A stretch of 20,236 nt of DNA. Source: a virus. The notes under the pieces are model-generated. The model made no database searches. It saw only the letters and a list, made by a program, of their open reading frames with translations, and had not been told where the DNA came from. Of the stretch, positions 3,351 to 17,548 are shown piece by piece. Where the stretch lies: positions 1 through 20,236 of IMG/VR virus record IMGVR_UViG_3300025141_001009; one strand, written 5' to 3'. The translations under genes and the position numbers were made by a program. Numbering within the stretch: position 1 is the stretch's first letter; the number at the start of each line of letters is the position of its first letter.

Positions 3351-4078
3351 CTGTTATTCCGCCGGAACTCACTGCGGAGAAAGATAAAATTGAAACTAAA
3401 GAACCACAACCCTATTGGAAACCAAGCTCACTTAAGGATGGAGAATCAGAAGAATTCCGTTTACTCGGATGTTACGAAACGGGGCACGCCATCGTTGGAT
3501 GGCAGTATGCCTCTGAGGTTCTGGATGATAAATCTGGGGATCTTAGGTTTAACGGCTTTGTGGTTACTCGTAGCCATCCTGGTTCTCCCGCAGATATTGC
3601 CAGAGAAACCGACTGGTCCAAGCCTGATCGGCCCAAGATTGACGGAAGTTTCGTCAAGCCACGTAGGTTCCTCGCCTGGGTTGCCACCTCTGCTTCACGT
3701 GGAAGACTAGAAGTTCTATTCATTGAACAGAAATCTCTACGTGAAATGCTCACTGAGATCCTGCAAGAGGATGAAGACTATACCTGGACTGAAGAGGGGC
3801 TAGCAAATTTCTCAATCAAAATCTCTCGTAAGGGACAGGGACTAGAAACTTCTTACTCAATCCTTCCGAAGGTACGTGCTGTACCTGAGAAGATTAAAAA
3901 GGAATGGGCTAAGCAGCAGGACACTATCTGGTTACCTAACTTCTTTGAAGGTAAAGATCCCTTTGAAGGTAAGACAACTGACGAGAAAGGTCTACCTGCT
4001 GGTGGTGTGGACAAGAGAGGAGCCACTGTAATGCCTAAAACTACTAAGAAAAAAACTGACGACGACGCTGAATTCTAA
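3341..4078 (+). CDS. Probable second ssDNA-binding protein with acidic C-terminal tail
   Basis: 245 aa. I do not recognise the family firmly. The architecture is that of a phage ssDNA-binding protein: a beta-rich core (about 20-185, e.g. FRLLGCYETGHAIVGWQY, RRFLAWVATSASRGRLEVLFI) with basic and aromatic residues, a flexible Lys/Gly-rich segment (about 200-238, MPKTTKKK), then TDDDAEF. Acidic tails ending in an aromatic residue are the partner-docking tips of T7 gp2.5 and bacterial SSB. It opens the replication unit and overlaps the next gene by one base (TAATG). It could instead be a recombination mediator. If it is an SSB, the phage encodes two, since the 2555 gene also looks like one. Confidence 0.5.
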   Translation: MTLTVIPPELTAEKDKIETKEPQPYWKPSSLKDGESEEFRLLGCYETGHAIVGWQYASEVLDDKSGDLRFNGFVVTRSHPGSPADIARETDWSKPDRPKIDGSFVKPRRFLAWVATSASRGRLEVLFIEQKSLREMLTEILQEDEDYTWTEEGLANFSIKISRKGQGLETSYSILPKVRAVPEKIKKEWAKQQDTIWLPNFFEGKDPFEGKTTDEKGLPAGGVDKRGATVMPKTTKKKTDDDAEF

Positions 4079-8456: not shown

Positions 8457-8879
8457 ATGTCAAGAAGAACAGATCTATTGCAGCAGCTACTTGTCTCCGA
8501 TAAATTTGGAGAGGATAAAAGTCAGGAGCAAAAGTTCCTTGCTGCTACTGCTGAGTTGATACTTACTGACCTTATTAACATTGCTATTAACGGTGTTGAA
8601 AAGTATGGAGCTGGTTCACTAGTTGTCAATCTACAGAATGGAAGTTCAACCTTCTGTTCAGGTGATGACATATTAGCTGACCTTAATCTTGCTGAATCGG
8701 AAGAGGATGAGGATACTTTGAAGTTCCTACGCCAGCTGATATCAGAGGTTGATGAGAATGACTGGAAAACAAACGTCCTCATTACTCTGATATCCGATGC
8801 TGGAACAAGAACATTTGCAGTCGAAGCAGGCAGGAGCCAAGAAAGCCTCCGATCGCTTACTTCAGAATTCACAGGATAA
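8457..8879 (+). CDS. Hypothetical acidic protein
   Basis: 140 aa. Residues 1-55 are helical (LLQQLLVSDKFGEDKSQEQK, then AELILTDLINIAINGVEKY). The middle has a short strand pair around LVVNLQNGSSTF. Residues about 76-100 are acidic (ESEEDEDTLKFL). No signal peptide, membrane segment or known motif is seen. Its last 83 bases overlap the downstream gene in another frame. I cannot assign a function. Confidence 0.6.
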   Translation: MSRRTDLLQQLLVSDKFGEDKSQEQKFLAATAELILTDLINIAINGVEKYGAGSLVVNLQNGSSTFCSGDDILADLNLAESEEDEDTLKFLRQLISEVDENDWKTNVLITLISDAGTRTFAVEAGRSQESLRSLTSEFTG

Positions 8880-9465
8880 GCTTGCTGCCCAAGGGCTAAA
8901 GCTTCCGCTATATCCACCGCCACAGATTATTGAAAGAGCACGTACTGTTATGGGGTCTATTGACCTTGACCCCACTTCTGATCCTGTGCAGCAGGTACTT
9001 GTTAACGCTACTTCAGTACCTTCGTTAGAAGTTAACCCACTACAGGAACACTGGCACGGTAACGTATTCCTTTCACCCAAAGGAGCTGTAAGGAACACAC
9101 GCACCTGGCTTAATAAAGCTATCAGTGAGTACCGTAACAATTACATCAAAAGCTTTATCTTCTTTACCAGTGCGTCCGAACTCATTCGTTCTTCTCCTAC
9201 TATTTGGGATTACCCAATCTGTATCCCATTCAAGAGGGTTAAGCAGCTCCGTGCTACTAAGTCAGGATTTGAGCCTATCTCACCTTCTACTTGGAACGTT
9301 ATTGTTTACGGTCCTCCTCTGGACGCCACGCTAAATAACATTGACCGTATCGGTTTGTTCTATAGCACCTTCCGTGATGTTGGCCGTATCATCTTTAACG
9401 AGTATGCTGGTGACAGCTGGGCTAAAGACCTTGAGTTCTACGAAGAACAAAGGGGTGACGTATGA
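8797..9465 (+). CDS. Phage N6-adenine-methyltransferase-like protein with altered catalytic motif
   Basis: 222 aa. It resembles the phage DNA N-6-adenine-methyltransferase family: IDLDPTSDPVQQVLVNA (55-71) matches the 'I-D-L-D-P-A-S' stretch that starts those enzymes, and LQEHWHGNVFLSPKG (82-96) matches the 'L..W.G.vf.NPPYg' region. The catalytic NPPY/DPPY tetrapeptide is here SPKG, so the Asn/Asp and the aromatic residue are lost. Adenine methylation is therefore doubtful; it may bind DNA or SAM only, or act as a decoy. The start at 8797 gives an 83-base overlap with the previous gene; the next Met is inside the conserved region. It overlaps the next gene by four bases. Confidence 0.6.
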   Translation: MLEQEHLQSKQAGAKKASDRLLQNSQDKLAAQGLKLPLYPPPQIIERARTVMGSIDLDPTSDPVQQVLVNATSVPSLEVNPLQEHWHGNVFLSPKGAVRNTRTWLNKAISEYRNNYIKSFIFFTSASELIRSSPTIWDYPICIPFKRVKQLRATKSGFEPISPSTWNVIVYGPPLDATLNNIDRIGLFYSTFRDVGRIIFNEYAGDSWAKDLEFYEEQRGDV

Positions 9466-9875
9466 GCAAGAATATCGACAAGGACTTTTTAATCGAGCTA
9501 CCTTCTGGGTTGGCTGTGCATCCTTGCCGATTAATACACCGAGACGGCACACTAATGTGGAAGCACGCTTTAACGTATAAGCAGCGTTGGATCCATACAC
9601 CTGAGACACAAGCACAGGAAGCACACATTGTAAAGACTGCTTATCGACTGGAGGAACTAAACACTTGGGTGTCACAGAACCTTGAACCATGGGAATGCTT
9701 TGAGCCAATCACTTGGTATGCACCTAACTTACTTAAATATAAGGAGGGTATCAGCTGCCTATTTAGGCATACACTGCATGACAGTGAGACAGTCTATGAC
9801 TGCCTTAAAGACCATATCCAAGATCAAGAAGAGCTTGTGATACGTAACAACGACTTGTTCTTTAAGCGTTGCTAA
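9462..9875 (+). CDS. Hypothetical protein
   Basis: 137 aa, starting within the stop of the methyltransferase-like gene (ATGA). It is rich in Trp, His and Cys (Cys at HPCRL, WECF, ISCLF, YDCL and the C-terminal KRC), with amphipathic helices and no membrane segment. No known motif is recognised. It is the last + strand gene before a lone minus-strand gene that ends six bases away, so the two transcripts converge there. Confidence 0.6.
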   Translation: MSKNIDKDFLIELPSGLAVHPCRLIHRDGTLMWKHALTYKQRWIHTPETQAQEAHIVKTAYRLEELNTWVSQNLEPWECFEPITWYAPNLLKYKEGISCLFRHTLHDSETVYDCLKDHIQDQEELVIRNNDLFFKRC

Positions 9876-9881
9876 AGCTTC

Positions 9882-10211
9882 CTACATCTTGTCAATCAAA
9901 CGATTAAGATACCAACGGGCTTTCTCTGCATCTTGCAGGGAGTTGCCCTTCAACCATATCCGAAGCAGATACTTCAATGCCTGAGCGTGCAGCATCCCCA
10001 TCACTGGGTCATCAGCATCCTGAATTGCATCTTCAATGATGTTAATAGCTTCCTTGCTACCACGGGTGTAGTGCGCAGGACTATTTACCATGTCTACCAT
10101 ACCCTCATCTGACCTATAAAGGTTAGCTTTGTCGTTATAAACTTTGACAGCATCACGTGAACTGATTTCCTCATACATCTTCTTCCAGTTGTTCCCACTA
10201 GGTTCGTTCAT
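9882..10211 (-). CDS. DUF3310 protein (T7 gp1.7-related domain)
   Basis: 109 aa. Residues about 40-109 match DUF3310: VNSPAHYTRGSKEAINIIED, then G-x-L-x-A-x-x-L-K-Y-L-L-R-x-W-x-K-G and DAEKARWYLNRLI at the end. This domain is part of T7 gp1.7, reported as a nucleotide kinase, and is common in phage replication regions. The N-terminal 35 residues are charged and not recognised. It is the only minus-strand gene within the first 13 kb, convergent with the gene on its left and divergent from the deaminase-like gene on its right, so it needs its own promoter in the 60-base gap at 10212-10271. Confidence 0.8.
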   Translation of the reverse strand: MNEPSGNNWKKMYEEISSRDAVKVYNDKANLYRSDEGMVDMVNSPAHYTRGSKEAINIIEDAIQDADDPVMGMLHAQALKYLLRIWLKGNSLQDAEKARWYLNRLIDKM

Positions 10212-10271: not shown

Positions 10272-10835
10272 ATGCCATCACCAAAAGGCGACCCAACATA
10301 TATTAAAAATAAGGAGAAGTTCTTCCTTGAAGTAGCAGAGACAATTGCTAAAGCATCAACACATCCGATAGCACCAGGTGGGTGCGTCATGGTCCGTAGC
10401 CGTGAAATTATCGGTGACGGTCGAAGCCTACTAGCTGCATGTAAGGTTGAACTTGACTGTATCAGTCATGCTATTGCAACTGCTGCATCTAGAGGCACAC
10501 CCACAACAGGTGCTGTTATCTATAGCACCAGATATCCCTTCTCAGCCTCAGTCTTTCAAGCCTACATTATGGGCATCAGAAAGATTGTAGTCACTGCTCA
10601 TGAATGGGAGCCATTTTATAAAGACGAATTTAGACGTGCAGCACGACTAGCACGTGACCTATGTATTGCCATCGAGCCGTATTTTAAAGATGAAGACAAA
10701 CGCTTTGCGGTTAACAAACAACCGGAGGAGAGCCATGACGAGGAATTCTACCCAGACGGGAACCCTTATGAACAGGACGATTTCGACCCTGAAAACTCAG
10801 AAACAATCTACGATGAAGACCCAACTGCTATTTGA
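10272..10835 (+). CDS. dCMP/cytidine-deaminase-fold protein lacking all zinc ligands (pseudoenzyme)
   Basis: 187 aa. Residues 55-107 align without gaps to phage dCMP deaminases: A-I-x-x-A-A-x-x-G at 67-75, GAVIYSTRYP (80-89), then GIRKIVV (101-107). The active site is gone. The HAE motif is Asp62-Cys63-Ile64, so both the zinc His and the catalytic Glu are lost, and PCxxC is P-F-S-A-S (89-93), so both zinc Cys are lost. Deamination by the known mechanism is not possible. The fold may serve as a nucleotide sensor, partner of RNR or polymerase, or inhibitor. The C-terminal 50 residues are very acidic (DEEFYPDGNPYEQDDFD). Its last 23 bases overlap the exonuclease gene. Confidence 0.75.
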   Translation: MPSPKGDPTYIKNKEKFFLEVAETIAKASTHPIAPGGCVMVRSREIIGDGRSLLAACKVELDCISHAIATAASRGTPTTGAVIYSTRYPFSASVFQAYIMGIRKIVVTAHEWEPFYKDEFRRAARLARDLCIAIEPYFKDEDKRFAVNKQPEESHDEEFYPDGNPYEQDDFDPENSETIYDEDPTAI

Positions 10836-11340
10836 CTTGGAGAGTACAGGGCTATTACGCCGTGGAAGTTCCATACATTGCATTGTGATGCGCAACCTAG
10901 AAGCTGAAGACACTCCCATTGTCTTTGACTGTCAGCCTGACCGTGACATACAGCAAGGTATTAGACAGCTTGAGAGTGCTGATGTCCTTATTGGCCACAA
11001 CATTATCAGCTTTGATATCCCACTACTGAAGGAACAGTACCCCGAGTTTGAATACAAGGGTGAGCTGATTGACACACTTGTCCTTAGCAGACTGTTCTAT
11101 CCCAACATCATTGACCGTGACTTTGAACGTCGCCCTGATGGGATGCCACAGAAACTGTATGGGCGTCATAGTCTAGAAGCATGGGGCTATCGCCTACGTT
11201 GCTTCAAAGGTGACTATGGCAAGCACGAAGGTGCATGGGAAACCTACACCCCAGAGATGCTTGATTACTGCATCGGTGACACAGAAGTCACGCTGAAACT
11301 CTATCAAATGCTGCTTAGGAGGATTGATGGTTACACCTGA
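10813..11340 (+). CDS. DNA polymerase 3'-5' exonuclease domain as a separate protein
   Basis: 175 aa, the proofreading half of a T7 gp5-like family A polymerase. DEDDy motifs: FDLES (7-11) with Asp8 and Glu10, IGHNIISFDIPLL with the second Asp, and MLDYCIGDTEVT near the end, matching the T7 'V-Y-C-x-K-D-x-E-V-T' Tyr/Asp motif. I start it at ATG 10813 (MKTQLLFDLES), because longer in-frame starts only repeat the deaminase-like gene. It stops at TGA 11338-11340, 14 bases into the polymerase gene. In T7 both domains are one chain, so here the split lies between exonuclease and polymerase. The two proteins probably assemble. Confidence 0.85.
   Translation: MKTQLLFDLESTGLLRRGSSIHCIVMRNLEAEDTPIVFDCQPDRDIQQGIRQLESADVLIGHNIISFDIPLLKEQYPEFEYKGELIDTLVLSRLFYPNIIDRDFERRPDGMPQKLYGRHSLEAWGYRLRCFKGDYGKHEGAWETYTPEMLDYCIGDTEVTLKLYQMLLRRIDGYT
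11317..11322 (+). promoter_or_regulatory. Strong Shine-Dalgarno for the polymerase half, inside the exonuclease gene
   Basis: AGGAGG lies four bases before ATG 11327 and within the last codons of the exonuclease gene. Most genes here lack such a site. It supports separate initiation of the polymerase domain and argues that the split is genuine, not a sequencing frameshift. Confidence 0.65.
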
Positions 11341-12634
11341 TTACGTCAAACTTGAGATGCGTATGGCTGAACTGATGGCACAACAGGAAGCTTCAGGCTT
11401 TCAGTTCGATGTCGTTGCAGCTGAACGTGTCCGAGGAGAACTCGCGGAGGAGGCTAAAAGTATTGAAGAAAAAATTCGGGCCGTATATTTGTATGTGCCT
11501 GACAAAGTCTTCACACCAAAGCGGAACGATAAAAAGAAAGGCTACGTATCTGGTGCACCACTAACGAAGCTGAACGACTTCAACCCAACCAGCAGGCAGA
11601 ACATTGCTTGGGCATTGCAAACCTTTAGGGGTGCTCGCTTCACAAAGCAGACTGCTACTGGCAAGCCACAGGTTGATGAGGCAACGCTATCAGAAGTTAG
11701 AGACCTTGCACTAACCCAAGGTAACCAGCAGCTGTTTGAAGAATGCGAATGGTTTATTCGTTTGCTGACATTACAGAAGTGGATGGGTCAATTAAGTGAA
11801 GGTACTAACAGTTGGTTTAATACAATTGAAGAGGATGGTTGTATCCATCACACCTGCTCATTGGCCACACAAACGGGACGTAACGCGCACCGTGGCCCCA
11901 ACCTTGGGCAAGTGGTGAGTGCACCGTGGGCACGAGAGCTATTTGTTCCTCACCCTGGCCACAAGATGGTCGGAGCAGACCTTGAAGGCCTAGAGCTGAG
12001 GTGCTTAGGGCACTACCTCGCCAGGTATGACAATGGTAATTTCGCTTCAGTTGTACTCGATGGTGATATACACCAGCAGAATGCTGACCGTGTTGGCGTT
12101 ACAAGAACGCAGGTCAAGACTCTCACTTATGCTTTTATTTATGGCGCAGGTGACGCAAAGCTTGGCCACAGTTTATCTCCTGAGCTATCTGACGCACAGA
12201 AAAAGTCTCTCGGAACGGAACTTAGGCGCAAGTTCCTCGACGCTATCCCAGGACTAGAGCCCTTAGTAGAAGCTATCAAGGAGCGTGTACGCGCCTCAGG
12301 GAGGCTGCGAGGCTTAGATGGTAGACCAATCTTCTGTCGTTCAGAACACAGTGCCCCTAACTTCTTACTGCAAAGTGCGGGCGCGATTTTGTCTAAGCGC
12401 TGGTGCGTTATAGGTCAAGACTTACTAAATGAAGCGGGGCTTACCTATGATAAAGATTATACCCGCTGTGCCTACGTACACGATGAACAGCAGTTCTCTG
12501 TGATCCCTGCTGAAGCTGAACGTGTTGCTGAACTATTAGTGAAAGCAGCACCTATGTCTGGTCAGTACTATCAATTTAAAGTACCGATCACTGCAGCGTC
12601 AGACATTGGAGATAGCTGGGCTGCCACACACTAA
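11327..12634 (+). CDS. T7-like family A DNA polymerase, polymerase domain only
   Basis: 435 aa from ATG 11327. Motif A is VGADLEGLELRCLGHYLARY (215-234, Asp218), very close to T7 gp5. Motif B is RTQVKTLTYAFIYG (260-273) with Lys264 and Tyr268 at the place of T7 Tyr526 (E. coli Pol I 762). Motif C is YVHDEQQ (383-389). TQTGRNAHRGPNLGQV (181-196) is the template/fingers motif. GYVSGAP and FNPTSRQNI (72-93) follow the T7 order, but the loop before them is about 20 residues where T7 has the 76-residue thioredoxin-binding domain. It overlaps the exonuclease gene by 14 bases. Exonuclease plus polymerase total 610 aa, against 704 in T7. Confidence 0.92.
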   Translation: MVTPDYVKLEMRMAELMAQQEASGFQFDVVAAERVRGELAEEAKSIEEKIRAVYLYVPDKVFTPKRNDKKKGYVSGAPLTKLNDFNPTSRQNIAWALQTFRGARFTKQTATGKPQVDEATLSEVRDLALTQGNQQLFEECEWFIRLLTLQKWMGQLSEGTNSWFNTIEEDGCIHHTCSLATQTGRNAHRGPNLGQVVSAPWARELFVPHPGHKMVGADLEGLELRCLGHYLARYDNGNFASVVLDGDIHQQNADRVGVTRTQVKTLTYAFIYGAGDAKLGHSLSPELSDAQKKSLGTELRRKFLDAIPGLEPLVEAIKERVRASGRLRGLDGRPIFCRSEHSAPNFLLQSAGAILSKRWCVIGQDLLNEAGLTYDKDYTRCAYVHDEQQFSVIPAEAERVAELLVKAAPMSGQYYQFKVPITAASDIGDSWAATH

Positions 12635-16805: not shown

Positions 16806-16950
16806 TTAATTCCTCGGTCCATTCTTCAATTAATTCTTTAGCAACTTCACTATAGAATTCTTGTTGCTGATACCAGCATAGCCAACTTTCGCTGCCTTTG
16901 GAGTGATTGCATTCTGTCTCAGCTGTAGTCGATCCGGCAGAAGCTGACGA
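16750..16950 (-). other. Coding-like open frame without a start codon, between oxygenase and NblA-like genes
   Basis: An open minus-strand frame of 66 codons (TAA at 16953-16951, TAG at 16752-16750) fills the 113-base gap and overlaps both neighbours. Its product looks protein-like, not random: SESWLCWYQQQEFYSEVAKE, then LIEEWTEELNDRHINL. It has no ATG, GTG or TTG. An ATG exists in a neighbouring frame at about 16911 (MQSLQRQRK), so one base change or a +1 shift could join them. It may be a frameshifted gene, a programmed frameshift product of the oxygenase gene, a non-canonical start, or chance. Confidence 0.4.
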
Positions 16951-17548
16951 TTAAATACCTTTCACCTGAAGTAATGGGACGACCTCCATGCTTATGTGTC
17001 AAAGCACCGGGGTGAAATGCAACCTCTCCTTGTTTACCTTTGAGTAATGTCTTGTGCTCTGGAAAGAATGTACCGCCGCCTACGTAGTCTGTTGGTGCAG
17101 ATAAAGTGACCAACGAAGTGAACGTTGAAGCGTCGTGATGTAGCTTCAATGAACCTTGTATATCTGGATTGTATCTAATAATAAATGTCTCACACTTCAA
17201 TCTTTTCTTGTTGATTGTAGTGTCATACAAACTATCAACAGTTGGTACAATTATATTTTTTATAGTACTCGCGTATATCTCAGCTAAATCTTTATTGAAA
17301 TTTTCAATTAAAACATCGTTAGTTGGATAGTTCTCGTGTCTACCTTCTGTCCAATTATCGAAAGTCTTGAGTTCTGCTAGCAGGTCATTACAGAACTTGC
17401 TAGAAAACAAGGGCATAGTATAGACACCAAAGCACGGGTTGTCTGCTATTAATTTGTATTCATAGCCGCTTGACAGCAACTCAGGTGCTAGAAATAAATC
17501 ATCCCAGCCATCATCTTCGTAATTTAATACGGTATTCTTTTCTTCCAT
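16919..17548 (-). CDS. 2-oxoglutarate/Fe(II)-dependent oxygenase (prolyl/lysyl hydroxylase-like)
   Basis: 209 aa. Likely hydroxylates a protein or other substrate using Fe(II), oxygen and 2-oxoglutarate. The double-stranded beta-helix motifs are complete: KLHHDAS (135-141) gives the H137-x-D139 iron pair, GGGTFF (157-162) the turn, and HPGALTHKHGGRPITSGERY (179-198) gives distal His187 with Arg197 ten residues later for 2-oxoglutarate. ETFIIRYNPD precedes the HxD strand as in procollagen-lysine hydroxylase relatives. Such oxygenases are frequent in cyanophages. It sits 12 bases after the large Ig-like protein gene, so that virion protein, rich in Pro, is a possible substrate (inference). ATATAAATG at its start resembles a late promoter. 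Confidence 0.87.
   Translation of the reverse strand: MEEKNTVLNYEDDGWDDLFLAPELLSSGYEYKLIADNPCFGVYTMPLFSSKFCNDLLAELKTFDNWTEGRHENYPTNDVLIENFNKDLAEIYASTIKNIIVPTVDSLYDTTINKKRLKCETFIIRYNPDIQGSLKLHHDASTFTSLVTLSAPTDYVGGGTFFPEHKTLLKGKQGEVAFHPGALTHKHGGRPITSGERYLIVSFCRIDYS

Follow-up and report, generated by a model that had tools for sequence, protein, structure and literature searches.

A predicted pseudoenzyme with the dCMP deaminase fold encoded beside a split DNA polymerase in a lineage of marine phages

A gene in the IMG/VR virus record IMGVR_UViG_3300025141_001009 encodes a protein that, by comparison with its relatives, is very probably a pseudoenzyme: a dCMP deaminase fold selected as a noncatalytic protein-interaction subunit and stripped of the residues that hold the catalytic zinc, activate water and grip deoxycytidine. 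The gene lies against those of a split family A DNA polymerase, and our best explanation as a whole, which we hold tentatively, is that the pseudoenzyme may act as an adaptor of that polymerase. We refer to the whole analyzed stretch, positions 1 to 20,236 of the record and 20,236 nucleotides long, as the window; coordinates of the features are given in Table 1.

Table 1. Features in and around the predicted pseudo-deaminase gene (window coordinates)
Feature	Position	Strand	Basis
Predicted pseudo-dCMP-deaminase gene, 187 aa	10272..10835	+	ORF, fold model, profile alignment
H31, invariant (95/95 letters), where T4/PBS1-type deaminases have a Cys ligand of their second (structural) metal site	10362..10364	+	Counting from aligned VG motif
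S52, replacing the dC-binding Asn of GYNG	10425..10427	+	Alignment
E60, invariant (96/96), two residues before the catalytic-His position, where the second metal site has its Glu ligand	10449..10451	+	
D62-C63-I64, replacing H-A-E	10455..10463	+	Profile alignment, 96 sequences
P89-F-S-A-S93, replacing P-C-x-x-C	10536..10550	+	Profile alignment, 96 sequences
Residues 109-130 (AHEWEPFYKDEFRRAARLARDL), lead-in and C-terminal helix, most conserved segment of the family	10596..10661	+	
Low-confidence acidic tail, residues 146-187	10707..10832	+	AlphaFold model, charge count
23-nt overlap between the end of the pseudo-deaminase gene and the start of the exonuclease gene	10813..10835	+	
3'-5' exonuclease subunit of the split T7-like family A DNA polymerase	10813..11340	+	
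Polymerase subunit of the split family A DNA polymerase	11324..12634	+	
DUF3310 protein, upstream neighbor	9882..10211	-	
Conserved neighbor without family match	9462..9875	+	
Dam-like protein with altered catalytic motif	8797..9465	+	

Results

Fold of the Protein

The reading frame starts with ATG and is free of internal stops. Against the Pfam deaminase family PF00383, the window protein scored 19.4 bits (E 0.001), under the gathering cut-off of 25 bits; the profile matched all 19 family members scanned, the window protein included, at E ≤ 1 (best 1.7e-7), and the likeness to deaminases is therefore above chance. The AlphaFold model is confident in the core, where 10-residue blocks from 11 to 140 reach 73–93, and has low confidence in the tail. 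The top PDB matches found with Foldseek were the human, PBCV-1, S. mutans and S-TIM5 dCMP deaminases. In structure comparison, the model gave a Z score of 19.0 with PBCV-1 bi-DCD, a dCMP/dCTP deaminase (1.7 Å over 124 residues), 18.5 with each of the human and S-TIM5 enzymes, and 14–17.5 with RibD and TadA. By this model the protein would adopt the cytidine-deaminase-like alpha/beta fold, as a preliminary description made from the sequence had claimed.

Loss of the Catalytic Site

The family lacks both hallmarks of dCMP deaminases, the HAE motif and the zinc cysteines of PCxxC. A profile–profile alignment of 19 family members with nine phage deaminases that retain the motifs (E 4.7e-12, probability 97.6) ran gap-free through both, equating D62, C63 and I64 with His, Ala and Glu of the first motif and P89, F90 and S93 with Pro and the two Cys of the second; the earlier reading of HAE as DCI and of PCxxC as PFSAS is thereby upheld. 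HMMER comparisons with single PDB chains placed the first motif otherwise, shifted or gapped (RibD and the S. mutans deaminase). We considered an alignment artefact and rejected it on the profile–profile alignment, the helix start and the loop length: helix 63–74 of the model begins at the start point of the HAE helix, and the spacing from the first motif to the next strand is the same as in T4-type enzymes.

The comparison of homologs that the preliminary description had called for found the erased forms conserved across 96 distinct sequences. Position 64 is never Glu but Ile, Val or Leu in all 96, and Cys occurs at neither 90 nor 93; His at 62 occurs in two and Asp in 93. The Pro of PCxxC (P89) is retained in every sequence, and the replacements are themselves conserved, with F90 in 94, S91 in 92 and S93 in 84 of the 96.

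Judged from these alignments, the active-site loss is broader than first noticed. In the PBS1 phage deaminase, Val27 and Asn43 bind the dC moiety (PMC12697855), and both are replaced in the window protein, by G36 and S52. Gly occupies position 36 in 98% of 70 family sequences, position 52 holds Ser in 87, Ala in 7 and Thr in 2 of 96, and GYNG has become GDGR/S in the family. Twelve columns are invariant across nine active-type phage enzymes: the family keeps G37, G50, T86 and G101 and nearly always A22, and has lost His, Glu, both Cys, the Asn of GYNG (S52), the Ala of HAE (C63) and Val (G36).

The same losses bear on nucleotide sensing, one of the roles proposed at the outset, and weaken the version of it that uses the old pocket. 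A sensor could also work with this pocket closed, if the inter-subunit allosteric site, which takes dCTP or dTTP in the hexameric active enzymes, survives and signals to ThyX, RNR or the polymerase. Lys or Arg (K73 in the window protein) stands in 91 of 96 sequences at the place of T4 Arg115, the residue altered in PDB 1vq2 ("mutant R115E"), and both ThyX and RNR are encoded in the same cluster, in the window and in its relatives. The change of GYNG to GDGR/S with both dC contacts gone and the conserved Phe at a zinc-ligand position nevertheless make a dNTP sensor unlikely and, with the contacts of the former pocket gone, less likely than an adaptor.

Some trace of metal binding may be left. 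The PBS1 deaminase holds a second, structural metal with Cys, Cys, His, Ser and Glu ligands (PMC12697855), and H31 and E60, at ligand positions of this site (M2), are its putative remnant; by sequence comparison, the loop with the rest of the M2 ligands is missing from the family. Together with R51, D62, R87, H110 and W112, which like them are invariant or nearly so, H31 and E60 might form a different active site, perhaps with a metal at the remnant. The invariance of these two residues at M2 positions favors such a new catalyst, but the remaining ligands have gone with the loop and no solved structure among those compared stood out as having a site of this kind, and we consider the idea rather improbable.

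Homologs and Selection

Searches of IMG/VR with three queries returned 29, 159 (80 kept) and 284 (80 kept) relatives in overlapping sets. Among 50,697 phage records, the sole named relative was Bacillus phage SP-15, a weak match present in two records, and no cellular homologs were found except on four contigs of environmental genomes, which we take for phage DNA. The median dN/dS was 0.13 (quartiles 0.10 and 0.17), with 0.083 in the folded core, residues 1–145, and 0.44 in the tail, the fastest-evolving part of the protein. So that loci were not selected through the pseudo-deaminase gene itself, we searched with the downstream exonuclease. In all of the best 80 of the 374 loci so selected, the pseudo-deaminase gene was present in a single open frame, and 57 distinct copies from exonuclease-selected loci all carried the same erased motifs.

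These patterns indicate that the gene is under purifying selection, and the dN/dS and the conserved replacements bear out the selection for another role that the preliminary description had suggested. The loss of catalytic residues would also suit a decaying gene or a hitchhiker, but the low dN/dS, the intact frame in every one of the best 80 loci and the conservation of the replacements make this reading scarcely credible; we rejected random decay on the dN/dS and the intact frames. Of the outcomes named beforehand as contrary, a structure unlike that of deaminases and decay through stops or frameshifts, neither occurred.

Redistribution of Constraint

We measured constraint as mean pairwise conservation and compared the family with a control set of nine T4-type deaminases of similar overall divergence (mean identity 0.72, against 0.73 in the family core). 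Conservation is lower than in the control around the former active site, at 0.68 versus 0.91 in the HAE helix, 0.73 versus 0.87 in the PCxxC helix and 0.84 versus 0.94 in the sheet ending in GYNG. It is higher, at 0.89 versus 0.66, over the lead-in and C-terminal helix, a comparison that is approximate in that the T4 stretch was placed by its offset from PCxxC. Residues W112, E113, Y116, E119, R121, R125 and R128 are invariant in the family. The mean net charge over 90 sequences is −8.3 in the tail versus +2.2 in the core; tails range from −14 to +1, at least one of them being nonacidic. The window protein ends in DPTAI and has no terminal aromatic residue.

Gene Neighborhood

Gene order is constant in the long loci examined and runs thyX, SSB-like, Cas4-like, VapE-type primase-helicase, HNH, Dam-like, a gene of unknown function, DUF3310, pseudo-deaminase, exonuclease and polymerase; part of these names are ones we presume to apply, the rest coming from family matches. 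The overlap with the exonuclease start spans 8–29 nt and keeps one relative frame in all 83 nonredundant loci measured, which suggests coupled translation with the exonuclease. Split exonuclease and polymerase genes are also found in cyanopodoviruses, there without an adjoining deaminase, so a split polymerase has no need of the pseudo-deaminase. An active-type dCMP deaminase, like the pseudo-deaminase, adjoins DNA polymerase I in two other phages examined, and the ancestor may thus already have had this position.

The surroundings vary in some respects. The DUF3310 gene is oriented against its neighbors in most loci and with them in five, a one-gene inversion. Relatives also differ in the spacing of the exonuclease and polymerase genes, which overlap in some and lie as much as several hundred bases apart in others; at least one relative has a small additional ORF. 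The Dam-like protein is 22–31% identical to phage proteins matching PF05869 Dam; its catalytic motif reads PKGA in the window lineage (63-row alignment) versus NHPF or NHPY in three of the four such PF05869-matching proteins compared. The protein, encoded two genes from the pseudo-deaminase, may be another pseudoenzyme, and its AlphaFold model (mean pLDDT 45.5) is too poor to judge the idea. Three ORFs for replication proteins, with 3' ends at window positions 4078, 4428 and 7364, give acidic C termini that close with Phe (DDDAEF, LEDEF and LNDF), reminiscent of polymerase-docking T7 proteins. A possible 2OG-Fe(II) oxygenase is encoded at 16919–17548 on the minus strand, its matches falling under the Pfam cut-offs.

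Phage Lineage and Search for a Partner Deaminase

A related record of 77,923 bp carries a 785-bp repeat at its ends (97.7% identity) and is for that reason probably whole. It encodes psbA (photosystem protein D1; PF00124 match and sequence), transaldolase, MazG, an integrase and RNR, and its terminase shares 54% identity with the terminase from Synechococcus phage S-EIVl. On the evidence of psbA, transaldolase and the S-EIVl-like terminase, we assign the lineage to marine cyanophages and infer a marine picocyanobacterium as host. One unplaced cyanophage genome with psbA and hli, listed apart from an S-EIV1 group, figures in a study of viral genomes from the sea (PMC5332604).

S-EIVl and the window have in common ThyX, a Cas4-like protein, an HNH gene, DUF3310, the polymerase and the Dam-like protein. 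No homolog of the pseudo-deaminase was found in S-EIVl, and its polymerase ORF is unsplit, a contrast that favors a link to the split polymerase and is drawn from this one named relative. In S-EIVl a DCD-type dCTP deaminase gene directly adjoins the Dam-like gene, with DUF3310 near (34222–36490); the cluster that matches this region in the marine lineage carries the dead dCMP deaminase fold and no DCD.

The dead protein might be the regulatory partner of an active phage deaminase that escaped detection, and the fragmentary state of most related records leaves room for one. Yet in 20 related records, most of them fragments, no other PF00383 protein matched at E ≤ 1, and DCD (PF22769) and dUTPase were absent from all 21 lineage records, the window included and most again fragments. 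No partner deaminase appeared in four records read in six frames, and neither an active deaminase nor a dUTPase in the terminally repeated 77.9-kb record. Such an allosteric partnership is for these reasons very improbable. An active paralog and an alternative phage source of dUMP were likewise sought, and none was found in these mostly fragmentary records.

Discussion

Of the roles suggested at first, a partnership with the neighboring polymerase agrees best with the overlap and the synteny. Production of the protein would be matched to that of the exonuclease subunit, the two genes overlapping, and through the near-invariant C-terminal helix (HEWEPFYKDEFRRAARLAREL) and the acidic flexible tail the protein may help in holding or regulating the split family A DNA polymerase. 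We propose an adaptor on account of the fixed linkage, the overlapping genes, the shift of constraint and the acidity of the tail. On the other hand, the polymerase neighborhood was possibly inherited from the ancestor, cyanopodovirus split polymerases manage without an adjoining deaminase gene, and the tail evolves fastest and is nonacidic in at least one copy; the conserved helix could instead serve self-assembly. A stronger proposal, that the zinc-free pseudo-deaminase is an obligate accessory subunit of the phage replicative polymerase throughout a widespread marine cyanophage lineage, translated with the exonuclease, docking by its C-terminal helix, coupling or tuning exonuclease and polymerase, and with H31 and E60 as its sole surviving metal-binding feature, appears doubtful.

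Interference with host enzymes was also among the roles suggested. The protein could join or mimic a host or defense deaminase of the AvcD/DCD type and block nucleotide depletion; deaminase-based anti-phage defense does exist, as described for AvcD (PMC10511110), and a pseudo-subunit could conceivably poison an oligomer. Three members scanned against PADLOC-DB gave no match, and a ComEB profile matched Synechococcus elongatus while exceeding its cut-off in only 1 of 14 controls, the matching protein being unspecified. Counter-defense genes are typically neither slow-evolving nor embedded in a replication cluster. The slow evolution of the pseudo-deaminase and its place inside the replication cluster of the long loci seen speak against an antagonist, which we regard as improbable. 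After an adaptor, a sensor acting at another site, then a host-enzyme antagonist and then a new catalyst follow in order of probability.

The pseudo-deaminase has in common with the dCMP deaminases of PF00383 (T4 Cd, S-TIM5, human DCTD and PBCV-1 bi-DCD) the fold, the order of strands and helices, the structural glycines and the Pro of PCxxC. It differs from them in the replaced zinc ligands, catalytic Glu and dC-binding Val and Asn, and in its newly constrained C-terminal helix and acidic tail. ADAT3/Tad3, a eukaryotic tRNA deaminase subunit, has the same fold (Z 13.9, 7nz7_B) and is itself a pseudo-deaminase retained as a partner subunit, which keeps zinc, lacks the catalytic Glu and pairs with a catalytic deaminase. 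In the phage family, in contrast, the zinc ligands are lost and no partner deaminase was found in 20 records. The DCD of S-EIVl, presumably active by its Pfam match, belongs to a fold unrelated to that of dCMP deaminases; the phage that encodes it is related to the marine lineage through terminase, ThyX, DUF3310 and the Dam-like gene, and the marine-lineage records lack DCD. The T7 replication proteins gp2.5 and gp4 have acidic C-terminal tails, and the pseudo-deaminase resembles them in its acidic, flexible tail and in the place of its gene beside a T7-like polymerase; unlike in the T7 proteins, the terminal aromatic residue is missing in the window protein and the tail is fast-evolving.

In the full-text literature searched, which mostly does not cover subscription journals, we found no report of a catalytically dead family of phage dCMP deaminases, and the pseudo-deaminase is of a sort that we did not find described there. 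The dead gene exceeds the PF00383 cut-off in 6 of 20 related records, and many copies would be wrongly labeled dCMP deaminase by annotation tools and miscounted as an enzyme of pyrimidine metabolism that is absent from these phages. The family offers a natural example, spread over hundreds of environmental phage contigs, of an enzyme fold that appears to have lost its whole catalytic site, with both metal and substrate contacts, and gained a newly constrained surface, and it provides a testable lead to what may be an unknown replication component in a widespread group of ocean viruses.
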